The notes under the pieces were generated by a model. The model made no database searches and was not told the DNA's origin. It worked only from the letters and a program-made list of their open reading frames with translations. This document shows, one piece after another, positions 32,682 through 42,127 of a stretch of DNA of 64,000 bases (the stretch's first letter is position 1; every line of letters begins with the position of its first letter). The translations under genes and the position numbers were made by a program. Source of the DNA: Paenibacillus sp. Soil787 (GTDB lineage: Bacteria > Bacillota > Bacilli > Paenibacillales > NBRC-103111); contig NZ_LMSP01000045.1 of NCBI RefSeq assembly GCF_001429545.1, forward strand, positions 1,731 through 65,730, read 5' to 3'.

Positions 32682-32728
32682 AAGCTTTGTCGGACTTCTT
32701 GTTAGGAGTCGCGACGAAGCTTTTTTTG
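32682..32728 (+). terminator. Intrinsic terminator of exporter operon
   Basis: AAGCTTTGTCGGACTTC pairs with GAGTCGCGACGAAGCTT (one bulge), followed by TTTTTTTG. Confidence 0.85.
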
Positions 32729-33000
32729 TATATGCGTGATAATAGTCCTAGAAAGATGCCGAAAGTATCAATCGTTTTATTGCATAATTTAACTGGTATA
32801 ACTGTCTTGAAAAGAGAAAACTGAACCTATTTTACCATTGGTTTGAATGATGTTAAAAAAAGCAATTTAGTTACAATATATAAACTTAACAAACAATATT
32901 GGAAAATTGTGTTGTTTTATTTAGTTTACTATACTATACTAATGTATAAAATTGTAAAGTTTCGCTGTCGATTATTGTCGAAGATGGGATTTTTCACCTA

Positions 33001-33138
33001 CAACTTTATAATGGCAAACCTATTGAAAAATAGGGACGCAAAGCTAGAGGGACTACATCCAACAAGGATATGTCAGCCAGTTGCATTGTAGCAATTGGTG
33101 GAATAGGGCATTTATGCCTGTGTTTCTCCTTTTTTTTG
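33001..33138 (+). ncRNA. c-di-GMP-I (GEMM) riboswitch with terminator
   Basis: The aptamer (about 33001-33083) shows the GEMM-I consensus pieces in order: AATGGCAAACC, a GAAA-like loop, GGGACGCAAAGC, then GGACTACATCC-AACAAGGATATG and CAGCC. P1 can form between CAACT (33001-33005) and AGTTG (33079-33083). The 3' P1 strand can also pair downstream (CAGTTGC with GCAATTG), and a GC-containing hairpin at about 33095-33129 is followed by TTTTTTTT, so transcription control is likely. It lies 43 bp before the PLP decarboxylase gene. Whether c-di-GMP turns it on or off cannot be decided by eye. Confidence 0.88.
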
Positions 33139-33180
33139 TGAACATTTCTTCAAGCAATTCTATCGATAGGAGAGAAATTA

Positions 33181-34851
33181 ATGAGAGAGAAAAGACTAAC
33201 GAATGTACAACAATTATTCCCCAGTGAGGACGGAAACCAACAAACGCGTCAACTGGTTTTGCGGCTCATTGAACAATTAGTAACAGGAGTGGATGATCTC
33301 AAAAACCCGGATGGCGTCAATCTTAAAGGCGAGAAAAATCGAACAGGTACTTTCTATAACAATCTTATTCGAGATAGCTCCATCCCTAATGGCAGTGTCC
33401 CCTTAGAAGAAGTGAATACAGAGTTATTGAAATTGCTGCATGATCATCCGTATCATACGAAAAATTTCTTAACGAATATTTTACCGATGGCCAGCATCCC
33501 GGGAATTATGGGCATGATTGCGGCGTTCTTGGTTAATGGCAACAATTTATGGGATGTATACGGCCCAGCCGGCGCTGAAGCGGAAGTTAGGGTAATCAGC
33601 ATGATGTCCAAATTAATCGGCTATGATGCGCTGAAAAGCGGCGGGTATACGACGTGGGGCGGACAAGGAGCTGTATTCTCAGGACTTCGGATAGCGACCG
33701 CCAAATTCGTTCCGGACGCCTTGCAAAAAGGCGTTCCCGACAACTTGTATGCTTTTTGTTCCGAAACTGCTCACTACAGCCTGTTCAAATCTATGGAGGC
33801 ATCAGGTATTGGGAGCGATAGATTAATTAGAGTTCGCACGAAATCTGATAGCTCCATGGATGTGAATGATCTGCGAGTGAAAATGGAAGAAGTGATCTTA
33901 CGAGGCGGAATCCCGATTTACATAGTAGCTACGACAGGAACAACGGATGCCATGGGGATTGACGATTTGGAACAAATTTATGCTGTGTCTGACAAGCTAG
34001 CCGTTCATCATGGGTTGCATAGACCGCATATCCATGCAGACTCTGCTTTAGGTGGATTCTTTGCTTTCTTTAATGACTATGATTTCGCCGCCAATCCACT
34101 CGAATTTAAAAAAGATGTCGCTCAGGCTTTACTTTCTATCCAACGCAAGATGAAGCATTTACATTTGGCCGACTCGCTATGCTTCGACTTTCAAAAGCTA
34201 GGGCAAACCCCTTATGTGACAAGCCTATTCCTAGTCAAGGATGCCGCCGATTTAAGACTCATGGATCTGCATCCGGATGAAACTCCCTATGTCGGACATC
34301 GGGGATATGGACAGTATCATACCGGTTATACGTTGGAGTGCTCGCGCATGGCTAGCTCCATCAGTATATACAGCGCTTTGCTTGCATTCGGCATTCAAGG
34401 TTATCAGCAATTACTTGCCCAGTTCGTTGAGGTTAATCTTGCTTTCCGGGAAGCGCTGCGTCAAGAAATCCCTCAAGCTGAAATCGTTAATAACGACAAC
34501 CCTGGCATCATTACATTATTTCGTATATATCCGGAAGGCAGCCCACATTTTCAGGAAGAAATTTCGGGCAAATGCACACTTAAGGAAATTGAACGGAATA
34601 ATAAATTTAATGAGCGTTTGTTCGAAATGTTAGGGAATCATCGCGACCGTATATTTTTTGGCGATACCAAAAAGCATTTGCTTGTTCAAACGAAGGATGA
34701 TCGTTCAGTTGCTCTATACGCGACAAAGATTTTTGTCATCTCCCCTTATACGGAGGCCAAACATGTACATGACATCGTTCAATATTTGAAGGAAACTGTA
34801 GCGCAAGTCTACGAGAAATATTCCGAAACATCGATTTTAAGCGGGAGGTAA
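33181..34851 (+). CDS. PLP-dependent group II amino-acid decarboxylase
   Basis: 556 residues, pyridoxal-dependent decarboxylase fold (PF00282 type). Key signs: GGYTTWGGQGAVFSGLRIA, the aspartate region IHADSALGG (equivalent to HVDAAWGG), and the PLP lysine in FDFQKLGQTP. The family includes glutamate, tyrosine and aromatic amino-acid decarboxylases; the substrate cannot be read from sequence. The ATG at 33181 follows AGGAGAGAAATT. It sits behind a c-di-GMP-I riboswitch and is followed six bases later by a chemoreceptor gene, so the two form one operon. This suggests production of a signalling amine, or acid or amine metabolism, linked to the motile-sessile switch. Confidence 0.92.
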   Translation: MREKRLTNVQQLFPSEDGNQQTRQLVLRLIEQLVTGVDDLKNPDGVNLKGEKNRTGTFYNNLIRDSSIPNGSVPLEEVNTELLKLLHDHPYHTKNFLTNILPMASIPGIMGMIAAFLVNGNNLWDVYGPAGAEAEVRVISMMSKLIGYDALKSGGYTTWGGQGAVFSGLRIATAKFVPDALQKGVPDNLYAFCSETAHYSLFKSMEASGIGSDRLIRVRTKSDSSMDVNDLRVKMEEVILRGGIPIYIVATTGTTDAMGIDDLEQIYAVSDKLAVHHGLHRPHIHADSALGGFFAFFNDYDFAANPLEFKKDVAQALLSIQRKMKHLHLADSLCFDFQKLGQTPYVTSLFLVKDAADLRLMDLHPDETPYVGHRGYGQYHTGYTLECSRMASSISIYSALLAFGIQGYQQLLAQFVEVNLAFREALRQEIPQAEIVNNDNPGIITLFRIYPEGSPHFQEEISGKCTLKEIERNNKFNERLFEMLGNHRDRIFFGDTKKHLLVQTKDDRSVALYATKIFVISPYTEAKHVHDIVQYLKETVAQVYEKYSETSILSGR

Positions 34852-34857
34852 TTGAAA

Positions 34858-36594
34858 GTGGCAAAGCATGCTCCAACAAAAATAGTAAACTGGTTCAGAG
34901 GGCAAATCGCAGTAAAGATGACGAGCAGTATTCTGCTGCTGTTAATATTTGTATGCGCGTCCTTCTCCGTCTCTGGCTATTTGGCCAGCAAAAGTTTAAC
35001 AACGAAGCTTGAAGATCAATTCGTTCTAAGATTAACGACAAACATTGAAAATGTTTCGAAATATCTGACCTCTATCCCCGAACATGCGGATGAAATTACA
35101 GGTAAAGATAAACCGGCCTATGCCAAAATTAAACAGCAATTTGAACAATTTAAGAAGCAAGATTCTCTTGAGAATGTTTATGTCCTGCAGAAAGTTCAAA
35201 ATAAAGATCAAATCGTCATTTTAACCGGAGTTGACGAAGATTTCGGAACCGAGTATCCTTTTACGCCAGAGATGAATGCTGCGATTAAAGAAAATAAACT
35301 AACGATCAGCGAGATTTACAAGGATGAATTTGGTATACATAAATCGGTATTTGTCCCACTCAAAAACGCTAAAGGCGAGAACGTCGGCATTGTCGGTATT
35401 GATTTAGATGCCTCAATCGTTACTAAAACGAAGCAAGAATTGTTATGGACAACCTTTACGATTACCTTAATCGTTATTGTTTTAGGCGGTCTGATAGGCT
35501 ATTTCATAAGTCGAAGTGTGACGCGACCGGTCATTCAACTGATGCGAGTAACAGAGAAGGTTGCTGCCGGTGATTTGTCTGCACAAGTCGCTATCCAGCG
35601 AGTAGATGAGATTGGTAAATTGGCAAATGCTTTTAACGAGATGCGTCAGAATTTAGATTCCCTGATCCGTCAAATATTTTCTTCCTCCAACCTCATTACC
35701 AATACCAGCGCGCAATTGTATCAGTCTGCGGACGAATCAAGCTCAAGTGCTGGGCAGGTTGCCGTTTCTATGAACAGTATGAACGAAGGGGTAGCTGAAG
35801 TTGTTTCTTCCATTACTGAGAGTACTTCATCAATCGTTGAGATCAATACGGAATTATCAGAAGTAACATCTGAAGTTAAAGAGATGCAGGAAATAGCCCA
35901 TAAGGTAGGCGCACAATCGGCAGACGGCCAGCAGCTTGTTGAGAAGACATTACATCAGATGAATGTGATTCAGAAAGAGATGAAGCATTCCCAAGAAGCC
36001 GCGCAGCAGCTAGGCAACCGTTCGAAGGAAATCGGGGAAATTATCCATATCATCACTGAAATTGCCCAGCAAACGAACCTGCTGGCTCTGAATGCATCCA
36101 TTGAAGCAGCACGGGTTGGCGAACAGGGGAAAGGCTTTGCTGTTGTAGCTGGTGAAGTGAAGAAGCTGGCGGAACAATCTACGAAAGCCGCAAGCTCGAT
36201 CACCGAGCTCGTTTCCAGTACCCAAAATGACAGCCTGCTTGTTATGGAAAGCATTGTACAGGGGAATCAAGCTGTCGAACAAGGTCAAAGCTGGATTAAC
36301 GATACGTATGAAAATTTTAAAGTTATTTTTAACGGGATTTCCGTTTTCACTAATCGGACGGACCACTTGATCGAGACTTTAGAGAAAGCGGAAAGGTCCT
36401 TTGAGACGATTTCTAACGCCATGCAGAAAATCTCAGGAATTACCGAGGAACAATCTGCAGGCTACGAGGAAGTGGCGGCAGCGGCTCAAGAGCAAAGTGC
36501 TTCCATTCAGGAGATTACTTCGGCTATTCGCCAACTATCTGATATGGCTGTTGTTCTGCAAGGCTCTGTTCAAAATTTTAAGATTACAGATTGA
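34858..36594 (+). CDS. Methyl-accepting chemotaxis protein
   Basis: 578 residues from GTG 34858, nine bases after GGGAGG; a TTG at 34852 is too close to that site. Transmembrane helix at about 20-45, extracellular dCache-like sensor domain to about 195 ([45 protein letters not shown]), second helix around 200-222, HAMP domain, then the signalling hairpin with tip [21 protein letters not shown]. It should sense a small extracellular ligand and control the CheA/CheY system. Its presence in a c-di-GMP-riboswitch operon with a decarboxylase is unusual. A terminator follows directly. Confidence 0.95.
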
Positions 36595-36623: not shown

Positions 36624-36648
36624 GCCAGCCCTAGGGCTGGCTTTTTTT
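36624..36648 (+). terminator. Intrinsic terminator after chemoreceptor gene
   Basis: GCCAGCCCTAGGGCTGGC followed by TTTTTTT. Confidence 0.9.
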
Positions 36649-39951: not shown

Positions 39952-39984
39952 TCAGTAAATTCTTAATTTCATAAGCAACATTGG

Positions 39985-40217
39985 TGAACAGGACAGTAAT
40001 TCTTGTCGGACAGTCGCAGCGAGCCGGAGCAGGTGGGAACCGGTACGAATGTCAAGAGTGAAGCGGGCCTGGGAAATGGTCTTCCGAAAGTACGACGTAG
40101 GGAGATCCGGCATAAGCCGTTATCGTTGGAGTGGTTAAACCAGTGGTTTAACACTTAGAGTGGTACCGCGGGAATGAACAGCTCTCGTCTCTTATTTGAA
40201 GAGACGGGGGCTTTTTT
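39985..40217 (+). ncRNA. T-box leader of argS
   Basis: The conserved T-box sequence GAGTGGTACCGCGG is at about 40158-40171. Upstream, GCAGCGAGCCGGAGCAGGTG and GTGAAGCGGGCC are typical stem I and post-specifier parts. Downstream, AGCTCTCGTCTCTT-ATTTG-AAGAGACGGGGGCTTTTTTG (40180-40217) is the intrinsic terminator that the T-box antiterminator competes with. Since argS follows, the leader should sense uncharged arginine tRNA. I could not fix the specifier codon without a structural alignment. Confidence 0.92.
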
Positions 40218-40240
40218 GTATTTCTAAGGAGGAATGTTCC

Positions 40241-42127
40241 ATGATTCAGCAGCTTTTAACGAAAGAAATCGAGCTTCATGTAGATGCCTTAATTCAAGAG
40301 TCCGGTATAGAGCGTCCTGCAACTCTGAAAATCTTGACGGAGCACCCGGCTCATTATGAGCACGGTGATTACAGCACGAATGCAGCTATGCTTTTAGCAA
40401 AAATAGTTCGTAAAGCTCCTTTGCAAATCGCGCAAGAGCTTCAACAACGGATAGAAAAGAGCGGCTCTGTTCAGGGCTTATTTGCTAAAGCAGCTGCGGT
40501 GCCGCCGGGGTTTCTGAACTTTTATATAAATTGGGACACCTGGTCTTCTGGTCATTATGGTGCTGCAAAAGAGCTTGTTGATGAAAGAAACAAATCAAAA
40601 ATTTTGATCGAACATACGTCAATCAACCCTAATAAAGCTGCTCATGTTGGCCATTTGAGAAATTCCTGTATTGGCGATTCGTTGTCACGCATGCTCTCGC
40701 AAGCAGGGTACCAGGTAGAGGTGCATAACTATATTGATGATCTGGGGAATCAACTGGCGGATACAGTTGTGGGCATTCTTCATACACAAACTGAAGAGAC
40801 TTTTAATCGTTTTGGCGACTTTTGTTGGGAGACCTACGCGAAGGTTAATCAGGCTTACAAAGTGCAACCGGAGCTTGTAGAGCAGCGTTCTACAGTACTA
40901 CATGCGCTAGAAAGCGGGCATTCCAATCTTGCTTGGATGGGTGCATTGGTAGCGGAAAGGATCGTTCGCGAGCAGTTGGAAGAAATGAAGCAATTCGGGA
41001 TTCACTATGATGTGCTGGTTTGGGAAAGCAGTATTGTGAGAGCTGGATTCTGGGATTCAACCTTCGGACTGCTTACGCAAACAGATATGTTTCATAAGGT
41101 GACAGATGGGAAATTGGCAGGCTGCTGGGTGCTGAAGAATCTAGAAGAAGGGGCTTCTACAGCTGGGGAAAGCGCGGATTATCAAGGGGATAAAGTGCTC
41201 GTTCGTTCCAATGGTATTTTAACGTATACAGCGAAGGATATTGCCTATCATCTATGGAAATTCGGTGTGCTGCCGAATGATTTTGTATATAAAAAATGGG
41301 AGGACGGACTGTGGTCCACGGCTTCCCAAGGCAGGAAGAAATCGATCGGGCAAGCGGATATCGTCATTAATGTCATTGACTATCGTCAGCAATACCCGCA
41401 GGAGATGGTGAAGCTGGCCCTTGAAGTGCTGGGCTATGAGCAGCAGGCGAGTCAGCTTAAGCACGTGAGCTACGGAGTTGTTTCCTTGAGTCCAGATACT
41501 GCGGCAGGACTGGGAATTGACATTTCGGATGGCAAAACTTCCTATGCGATGTCTGGGCGCCAAGGGATAGGGATTAAAGTCGCGGACCTGCTTGATCACA
41601 TGGAGAGAGTCATTAACGCTAAACGCTCAAAAAAAGCGGGAATTTCCAGCAGATCGATAGCTGCAGCTGCGATCCGTTATTATTTACTGAAATATCAGCT
41701 GCAAACGGAAGTTGTTTTTGACTTGGAGCATGCGACGGAAATAACAGGGAACACGGGCGTATACTTGCTTTATGCCTACACAAGAGCAAAGAGTATTTTG
41801 GACAAAGCGAAGAGGGATGCTCGTCTACTTAGAGTGGAGGCTAAGTTCGATGGGACTTATTTGGAAGATCAGGAATATCACCTATTGAGACACATCGCCT
41901 ATTGGCCCGAAACACTGGAAACGGCCACTAAGCAGTTGGCGCCTAGCATACTTTGCCATTATGCCTTCGAGCTAGCTTCGCTTTTTAATCATTTTTACAG
42001 TGTTTGTCCGGTCTTAAAAGGAAGTGAAGAGCGCATGTCCCATCGACTTTGGATCACGCAAACGTATAAAGACACCATGCATCAAGCATTGGAAATACTG
42101 GGTATGCCGACGCCCAAACGATTGTAA
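40241..42127 (+). CDS. argS: Arginyl-tRNA synthetase
   Basis: 628 residues from ATG 40241 (TAAGGAGGAATGTTCC upstream); the frame is open further up through the T-box terminator but that cannot be coding. Class I synthetase: the HIGH motif is HVGH in NPNKAAHVGHLRN, the KMSK-equivalent is MSGRQG, and the anticodon-binding C-terminus ends HHFY-like FNHFYSVCPVL. It is about 70 residues longer than the usual Bacillus ArgS (about 556), so it may be the second, alternative type of enzyme. T-box control matches induction when arginine tRNA is uncharged. Confidence 0.93.
   Translation: MIQQLLTKEIELHVDALIQESGIERPATLKILTEHPAHYEHGDYSTNAAMLLAKIVRKAPLQIAQELQQRIEKSGSVQGLFAKAAAVPPGFLNFYINWDTWSSGHYGAAKELVDERNKSKILIEHTSINPNKAAHVGHLRNSCIGDSLSRMLSQAGYQVEVHNYIDDLGNQLADTVVGILHTQTEETFNRFGDFCWETYAKVNQAYKVQPELVEQRSTVLHALESGHSNLAWMGALVAERIVREQLEEMKQFGIHYDVLVWESSIVRAGFWDSTFGLLTQTDMFHKVTDGKLAGCWVLKNLEEGASTAGESADYQGDKVLVRSNGILTYTAKDIAYHLWKFGVLPNDFVYKKWEDGLWSTASQGRKKSIGQADIVINVIDYRQQYPQEMVKLALEVLGYEQQASQLKHVSYGVVSLSPDTAAGLGIDISDGKTSYAMSGRQGIGIKVADLLDHMERVINAKRSKKAGISSRSIAAAAIRYYLLKYQLQTEVVFDLEHATEITGNTGVYLLYAYTRAKSILDKAKRDARLLRVEAKFDGTYLEDQEYHLLRHIAYWPETLETATKQLAPSILCHYAFELASLFNHFYSVCPVLKGSEERMSHRLWITQTYKDTMHQALEILGMPTPKRL

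Follow-up and report, generated by a model that had tools for sequence, protein, structure and literature searches.

The closest described counterpart of the locus treated here is Bc1-mcpE of the Bacillus cereus group, in which a cyclic di-GMP (c-di-GMP) aptamer of the c-di-GMP-I type and intrinsic terminators occupy the leader of a gene for a methyl-accepting chemotaxis protein (MCP). According to the accessible parts of its description, 98.7% of the 155 genomes examined from that group contain Bc1-mcp (PMC11218506). Two further systems bear on the comparison. Escherichia coli chemotaxis towards self-made autoinducer-2 (AI-2) is a precedent for cells sensing a molecule that they themselves release, and the accessible text on it mentions neither a riboswitch nor an operon joining synthase and receptor (PMC5056481). 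In Bacillus, the motility sigma factor SigD controls MCP genes, and a term search of the main text of that regulon study turned up no named decarboxylase (PMC5200910, seen in part). Here we describe a c-di-GMP-I aptamer, a pyridoxal phosphate (PLP)-dependent decarboxylase gene (DEC) and an MCP gene that follow one another in a 64,000-nt stretch of Paenibacillus sp. Soil787 (contig NZ_LMSP01000045.1); we call the whole stretch the window and number all positions along it. Like Bc1, the locus belongs to the Bacillota, in another genus. Unlike Bc1, which lies directly before its MCP gene, has two terminators and is accompanied by no enzyme gene in the accessible text, the leader in the window has one terminator behind the aptamer, places an enzyme gene first and carries Spo0A-like boxes upstream.

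Our preferred reading is that this is a motile-phase cassette in which DEC produces, modifies or removes the ligand that its own chemoreceptor detects, and we put the probability of that explanation as a whole at somewhat under one half (about 0.46). Predictions and comparisons across genomes establish its foundations: an aptamer, a terminator, two genes with intact-looking key residues, and tight evolutionary coupling between them. The first-pass annotation, which covered 33001-36594, had regarded the riboswitch target as unusual. That view stands for the enzyme in the operon; it does not stand for the chemoreceptor, since a c-di-GMP-I aptamer before an MCP gene is already known from Bc1-mcp (PMC11218506, in part) and recurs at a locus among our fetched sequences (L086, 4568-6548), where, like Bc1 before mcpE, it directly precedes an MCP gene, one with a different type of sensor. 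A search of open-licence papers, with subscription papers outside its scope, found no account of a c-di-GMP-gated pairing of enzyme and receptor. One open-licence paper combined the terms c-di-GMP, riboswitch, decarboxylase, chemotaxis and Paenibacillus, in unrelated contexts, and none contained 'methyl-accepting chemotaxis', 'pyridoxal-dependent decarboxylase' and 'riboswitch' together.

The coupling of the two genes is the firmest part of the argument. A scan for DEC in 84,980 species genomes yielded 29 loci, in 27 of which the same MCP gene follows directly in the same direction, with DEC promoter-proximal in all 27. Between the two genes lie -20 to +56 nt in the 26 pairs measured (with start codons of our own choosing, and leaving out the frameshifted L020). 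The surroundings are far less constant: an ATP-binding cassette (ABC) transporter pair adjoins DEC in 11 of the 29 loci, all of them close relatives, and GDYXXLXY and EamA genes stand beside the pair only in close relatives. Since the outer neighbors change while the pair stays, DEC and MCP appear to be kept as a unit. At L020 (5001-8394), from a draft of P. alginolyticus DSM 5050, DEC and MCP are both frameshifted, through either sequencing error or real decay.

Sampling within the order gives the same picture. DEC (E 1e-60) occurs in 25 of 296 genomes, and a receptor sensor profile (A3, built from DEC-linked receptors and scored on at most 13 candidates per genome) reaches at least 189 bits in 24 of the 296; all 24 are DEC-positive, and by coordinates the sensor adjoins DEC in each. 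The next scores are 166.6 bits for a tandem second copy in G255, then 98 and 90, then 61 or less. G231 is the only one of the 25 DEC genomes with no strong sensor match, and its DEC stands alone. Fisher's exact test gives p = 2e-34 for this co-occurrence, a value that is overstated because the genomes are related, the profile is DEC-linked and no more than 13 candidates per genome were scored. In G255 (L059, 5977-9707), two tandem MCP genes of the same type stand behind one DEC, with no c-di-GMP aptamer. In a phylum sample DEC occurs in three of 398 genomes including the window's own; the other two are G431, of the same class, which has the pair, and G442, which has a distant DEC (43% identity) and no MCP.

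Altogether we count 36 distinct pair loci: the window, the 27 public loci and eight further genomes (L055, L056, L058, L059, L060, L062, L066 and L091). Four more loci (L057, L067, L068 and L092) were dropped as duplicates that share exact 300-base stretches with L022, L031, L035 and L027, and another twelve DEC genomes of the order sample, whose contig coordinates identify them with public loci, were not fetched a second time. An aptamer lies directly upstream of the pair in 24 of the 36 (1 + 18 + 5) and before none of the four DEC genes that have no MCP (L039, L040, L061 and L063). The initial proposal that riboswitch, decarboxylase and receptor form one unit, to be checked by seeking the operon in other genomes, is thus borne out by the conserved pair, its near-perfect co-occurrence and the recurrent aptamer, and DEC and MCP almost certainly constitute one co-regulated unit.

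Within the window, the junction between the genes is consistent with a shared transcript. The MCP open reading frame (ORF) is open from TTG at 34852 (ORF calling gives 34852-36594), and GTG at 34858, 9 bases behind GGGAGG, is the likelier start; this motif, in the final bases of DEC, is a candidate ribosome-binding site for the MCP gene. The resulting gap of 6 nt agrees with the six bases first noted between a PLP decarboxylase and an MCP, and both gene assignments are upheld by domain matches (PF00282 for the former, MCPsignal and HAMP for the latter). A separate MCP promoter, which would speak against joint control, was sought in 34550-34857; the best sigma-A-like site there matches at 9/12 positions and lies inside DEC (34573-34602), and all others match at 8 or fewer.

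DEC matches the Pyridoxal_deC family (PF00282) at 100.5 bits against a cut-off of 27, and its predicted PLP-site residues H198, D287 and K339 do not vary across an alignment of 29 DEC sequences and align with their equivalents in PDB homologues. It resembles the group II PLP decarboxylases acting on 2,4-diaminobutyrate, aspartate, tyrosine, glutamate and aromatic amino acids in family, in these His, Asp and Lys residues and in fold. It differs from those named in NCBIfam in scoring below every listed equivalog cut-off and in the motif DFQKLGQxPY around the lysine, which reads DFHKLGQ instead of DFQKLGQ in three outlying relatives. Assigning a substrate through the named NCBIfam decarboxylases was rejected, as all six equivalogs compared (DABA, PanP, TyrDC, MfnA, HDC and GAD) fall far under their cut-offs (best, 84.6 of 900 bits). 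The closest fold to the DEC model is a Sphaerobacter decarboxylase (4rj0, Z 31.3, 3.1 A over 358 residues), with DfoJ and the diaminobutyrate, tryptophan and glutamate decarboxylases tied within 1 Z of it. We did not read a substrate from the fold, given these ties between enzymes of different substrates and a model that is weak around the active site (predicted local distance difference test score, pLDDT, below 50 at 89-127, 339-346 and 363-391). One DEC relative (L040, 50% identity) lies 21 bases behind a gene for an SNF-family sodium:neurotransmitter symporter (PF00209), a neighbor that fits an amino-acid substrate for DEC.

The receptor has clear signaling (MCPsignal, 150.4 bits) and HAMP (60.4 bits) domains, and its sensor is modeled with high confidence (pLDDT 93.5) as a single Cache domain. 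Its nearest folds are the extracellular Cache domain of WalK (4ywz, Z 15.3, 2.7 A over 135 residues) and a formate chemoreceptor (8py0, Z 14.3, 3.4 A over 144 residues). The likeness to WalK and to single-Cache chemoreceptors is one of predicted fold; in sequence the sensor stands apart from them, at 12-13% identity, and no Pfam Cache model is listed for it at E 0.01. Among the nearest chemoreceptor Cache structures are some that contain a bound amino acid or small acid.

A second enzyme appears to have entered the same slot. The next-best relatives of the receptor come from two genomes without DEC (G175 and G082), where the aptamer in front of them is of the c-di-GMP-I type (79.2 bits) in one and the c-di-GMP-I-GGC type (71.9 bits) in the other, with a gene for an ATP-grasp enzyme between aptamer and MCP. 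The row of c-di-GMP-I-type aptamer, ATP-grasp gene and Cache MCP can be seen at L064 (104-3290) and L065 (3781-6955), in genomes of different families. The nearest solved relative of the ATP-grasp enzyme is the L-amino acid ligase BL00235, a remote match at 42.8 bits. At E 1e-20 the enzyme occurs in two of the 296 genomes, exactly G175 and G082, and no further such cassette was found in one genome of G082's genus or 51 of G175's. In a receptor tree that left out nine of the 27 DEC-linked rows of alignment A2, the ATP-grasp-linked receptors, together with a solo receptor on a long branch (L082), are sister to the DEC-linked ones, and are thus relatives rather than members of the DEC-linked clade. 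Two amino-acid-type enzymes with related receptors and the same class of RNA switch are the strongest hint, from two loci only, that enzyme and receptor have a small molecule in common; whether DEC and its MCP do so we consider an even bet.

The riboswitch itself was recognized at the outset and is upheld by the covariance model, which is matched over its full length (RF01051, 1-87) at 71.8 bits (gathering score 35, E 4.1e-12). The alignment contains the GAAA tetraloop on P2 and the conserved GGCAAAC / GACGCAAAG core, and c-di-GMP is very likely the ligand of the predicted aptamer. RNA folding pairs GCCAGUUGC (33076-33084) with GCAAUUGGU (33091-33099). The 5' arm of this predicted antiterminator overlaps the 3' strand of the aptamer, in that CCAGUU forms the 3' strand of the outer helix in the covariance-model alignment, and the GG of its 3' arm closes the terminator against the CC that precedes the U tract. 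Because these strands are shared, aptamer and antiterminator would be mutually exclusive, and termination is predicted when c-di-GMP is bound. A non-exhaustive test for an ON switch, in which ligand binding to the aptamer would prevent the terminator from forming, found no pairing in the window's leader that could do this. A terminator-like stem stands directly behind the aptamer in 19 of 21 aptamer leaders, by a finder run without shuffle control; it missed L034 and L060, which have strong hairpins with only three U behind them. Three other aptamer-bearing loci (L055, L056 and L091) were left out of both the terminator and the antiterminator tests. Against 500 mononucleotide shuffles of 20 bases per leader, at the 5% level, the antiterminator pairing stands out in the window and in eight of the 20 other leaders, seven of them of the window's clade plus L022. 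An antiterminator general to all leaders is not supported, and we argue for repression in the window's clade only, where high c-di-GMP probably represses the operon.

The genome (7.66 Mb), whose nearest public relatives at the DEC-MCP locus are Paenibacillus, holds at least 14 c-di-GMP-I aptamers among the 150 of 598 candidates that were scored. In the stretches read, with ORFs judged by eye, an MCP gene follows only the one at 33003-33088. By the same by-eye reading, the other 13 (L069-L081) lead mainly to exported or surface proteins and polysaccharide enzymes, and also precede a GGDEF-type protein (L069) and a CheY-like regulator (L072). One of them (L076) lies about 3 kb behind flagellin genes.

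Upstream of the aptamer, a further layer of control is suggested by two sites that resemble the Spo0A box, whose consensus is TGTCGAA (PMC10134886, in part). In the window's leader TGTCGAT-N3-TGTCGAA matches a tandem of such boxes at 13/14 positions, and none of 200 leader shuffles does as well. Tandem Spo0A boxes follow a 10-base spacing rule. Across the window's clade, 11 of 13 leaders score 12 or 13/14, with at most one of 200 shuffles doing as well; the exceptions, L018 and L023, reach only 10/14, a score attained by 29 and 22 of 200 shuffles, and the best sites in 22 leaders outside the clade reach just 7-9/14. When TGTCGA-N4-TGTCGA was sought with up to one mismatch, the window held a single match, which is exact; at that tolerance 24 of 100 whole-window shuffles also hold a match, and the exact core is expected about 0.008 times per window from base composition. 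Of 90 fetched loci, 18 contain the exact core; they come from 10 different genomes, and in each the core lies in the DEC leader. As the putative boxes lie between promoter and aptamer, bound Spo0A would repress. The genome encodes both Spo0A (a Spo0A_C protein) and flagellin.

Aptamer-free leaders offer two further views of this regulation. In L029 (Bacillus sonorensis) and L032 (B. glycinifermentans), the pair stands behind a promoter that resembles the SigD motif TAAA-N15-GCCGATAT (PMC5200910, in part) at 11/12 positions, with one and two of 200 shuffles as good. Together with the Spo0A-like boxes, these two SigD-like promoters point to expression in motile cells. A SigD-like candidate in L062 was given little weight (10/12, nine of 200 shuffles as good), and L037, L039, L042 and L043 also reach 10. 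In the receptor tree L062 (G431) groups with L029 and L032 (support 93/93); the Bacillus-named pair L037 has an aptamer and sits among Paenibacillus rows. Another group is formed by L018, L021, L038 and L043, which keep the promoter region and lack aptamer and terminator. Three of these group together beside the aptamer-bearing L019 (L021 is absent from the tree), so a single loss of the aptamer is likely. The remaining aptamer-free pairs (L028, L030, L031, L058 and L059) have other leaders. By eye, all of these except L059 share an inverted repeat (such as TGCCAT-TTC-ATGGCA) 5' of a TATAAT-like box, perhaps the operator of another regulator.

Taken as a mechanism, the motile-phase cassette would work as follows. 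Transcription would start near 32947. At high c-di-GMP, the bound aptamer would hold CCAGUU and leave GCAAUUGG free, the terminator would close fully and transcription would stop. At low c-di-GMP, in motile cells, CCAGUUGC would pair with GCAAUUGG, opening the base of the terminator, and the operon would be read. Commitment to biofilm or sporulation would bring a second block, by Spo0A~P on the tandem boxes. DEC would act on an amino acid, its substrate or product would be the ligand of the neighboring Cache receptor, and swimming cells would thereby sense a compound that they themselves make, alter or remove.

Several observations weigh against this account. In Bc1, SHAPE probing indicated that the terminator unfolds upon c-di-GMP binding, and expression in vivo seemed locked off, with no response to c-di-GMP (both from the accessible parts of PMC11218506); polarity and response therefore cannot be assumed. 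In the ligand-free fold of the window's leader, the terminator core is still able to form beside the antiterminator. The antiterminator pairing is not significant at the 5% level in 12 of 21 leaders, all outside the window's clade (fractions 0.054-0.79), and the leaders within the clade are near copies of one another. The promoter at 32912-32940 is a possible one, a weak match whose position we infer. An aptamer is absent from 12 of the 36 pair loci, including four that belong to the same genus as the window, so the pair does not depend on c-di-GMP control. Four DEC genes have no adjacent MCP. The co-occurrence analysis favors association through a profile built from DEC-linked receptors and through the limit on candidates per genome. 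Finally, we infer enzyme activity, ligand link and in vivo response from sequence only.

Among the alternatives, the one that survives best is that MCP and DEC both act on an external amino acid, which the former detects as a nutrient and the latter breaks down, with no self-made signal, the riboswitch merely placing both in the motile program. Cache chemoreceptors of similar fold (Tlp3, 8py0 and PctC) do bind amino acids or small acids, and the symporter gene 21 bases in front of the L040 relative fits amino-acid uptake. Yet no transporter is a conserved partner of the pair, since the ABC pair (11 of 29 loci) and the downstream EamA-type gene are confined to close relatives; a single decarboxylation gives an amine and little carbon or energy; and the alternative partner in the slot, a ligase-like ATP-grasp enzyme, is probably biosynthetic. 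We regard foraging as unlikely. It is more doubtful still that the MCP is the sole target of the riboswitch and that DEC is in the operon only through an accident of position. Aptamers do precede MCP genes with no enzyme, in Bc1-mcpE (PMC11218506, in part) and L086, and no aptamer accompanies the four DEC genes that have no MCP. A mere passenger would, however, hardly be promoter-proximal in 27 of 27 pairs, accompany all 24 strong sensor matches, retain its place in twelve pairs that have no aptamer, or be replaced in the same slot by a different amino-acid-type enzyme in two genomes. Least probable is a pH or acid-stress module, with DEC consuming protons and the MCP serving pH taxis or detecting the amine. 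In other bacteria, acid resistance does draw on amino-acid decarboxylases of this superfamily, but those are normally accompanied by an amino acid/amine antiporter, none was found among six window proteins scanned, and the aptamer, the Spo0A-like boxes and the SigD-like promoter of two Bacillus pairs indicate motility timing instead.

Table 1. Features of the DEC-MCP locus, in window coordinates
Feature	Position	Strand	Basis
Possible sigma-A promoter, TTGTTT (32912-32917), 17-base spacer, TATACT (32935-32940)	32912-32940	+	8/12 consensus matches
Tandem Spo0A-box-like sites TGTCGAT and TGTCGAA, starts 10 bases apart, between promoter and aptamer	32966-32982	+	13/14 matches
c-di-GMP-I riboswitch aptamer	33003-33088	+	RF01051, 71.8 bits
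Predicted antiterminator hairpin GCCAGUUGC / GCAAUUGGU	33076-33099	+	RNA folding
Predicted intrinsic terminator, stem 33097-33129, U8 tail 33130-33137	33097-33137	+	RNA folding
DEC ribosome-binding site ATAGGAG	33166-33172	+	sequence reading
DEC, group II PLP-dependent decarboxylase gene, 556 aa	33181-34851	+	PF00282, PDB relatives, alignment, fold
MCP gene, one extracytoplasmic Cache-like sensor, HAMP, signaling domain; GTG start	34858-36594	+	domain matches, sensor model
End-of-unit terminator, 7-pair stem with 6 GC pairs, T7 tail	36624-36641	+	sequence

The probable promoter and the Spo0A-like boxes begin about 90 bases before the start of the range first annotated. A rival promoter site, TTTACT-16-TAAAAT at 32925-32952, has 9/12 matches; we prefer TTGTTT/TATACT because the TATACT region is, by eye, kept in the relatives that have no aptamer. 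Further upstream, 32651 is the last base of a same-strand ABC-transporter pair, and a hairpin read by eye at about 32682-32727 (AAGCTT...AAGCTTTTTTT) probably ends that unit. Elsewhere in the window, a T-box leader (RF00230, 119.5 bits) at 39975-40195 stands directly 5' of an ORF (40196-42127) that by eye resembles an arginyl-tRNA synthetase. At another fetched locus (L085, 1147-4169), ORFs of the ISIHAPAWGAT / FNPRTRVGCD kind occur repeatedly; such ORFs usually are a translated CRISPR array.

Most chemoreceptors have no known ligand. Here, the presence of one enzyme beside one receptor type in nearly every sampled genome narrows the ligand to the substrate or product of DEC, which makes the question directly testable, and the four relatives that lack the aptamer and keep the promoter region are natural comparisons. 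A broader reading, which we offer only tentatively, is that Paenibacillus, Bacillus and their relatives hold a cassette of c-di-GMP riboswitch (or motility sigma factor), interchangeable small-molecule enzyme and Cache receptor for its product, by which motile cells might make and follow a private amine or dipeptide-like attractant, with c-di-GMP silencing both signal and receptor as cells settle. If the product of DEC is indeed the ligand of the neighboring receptor, the pair would constitute an autocrine chemotaxis signal switched by c-di-GMP, and such a signal would link metabolism, cell-cell attraction and the decision to swim or settle.

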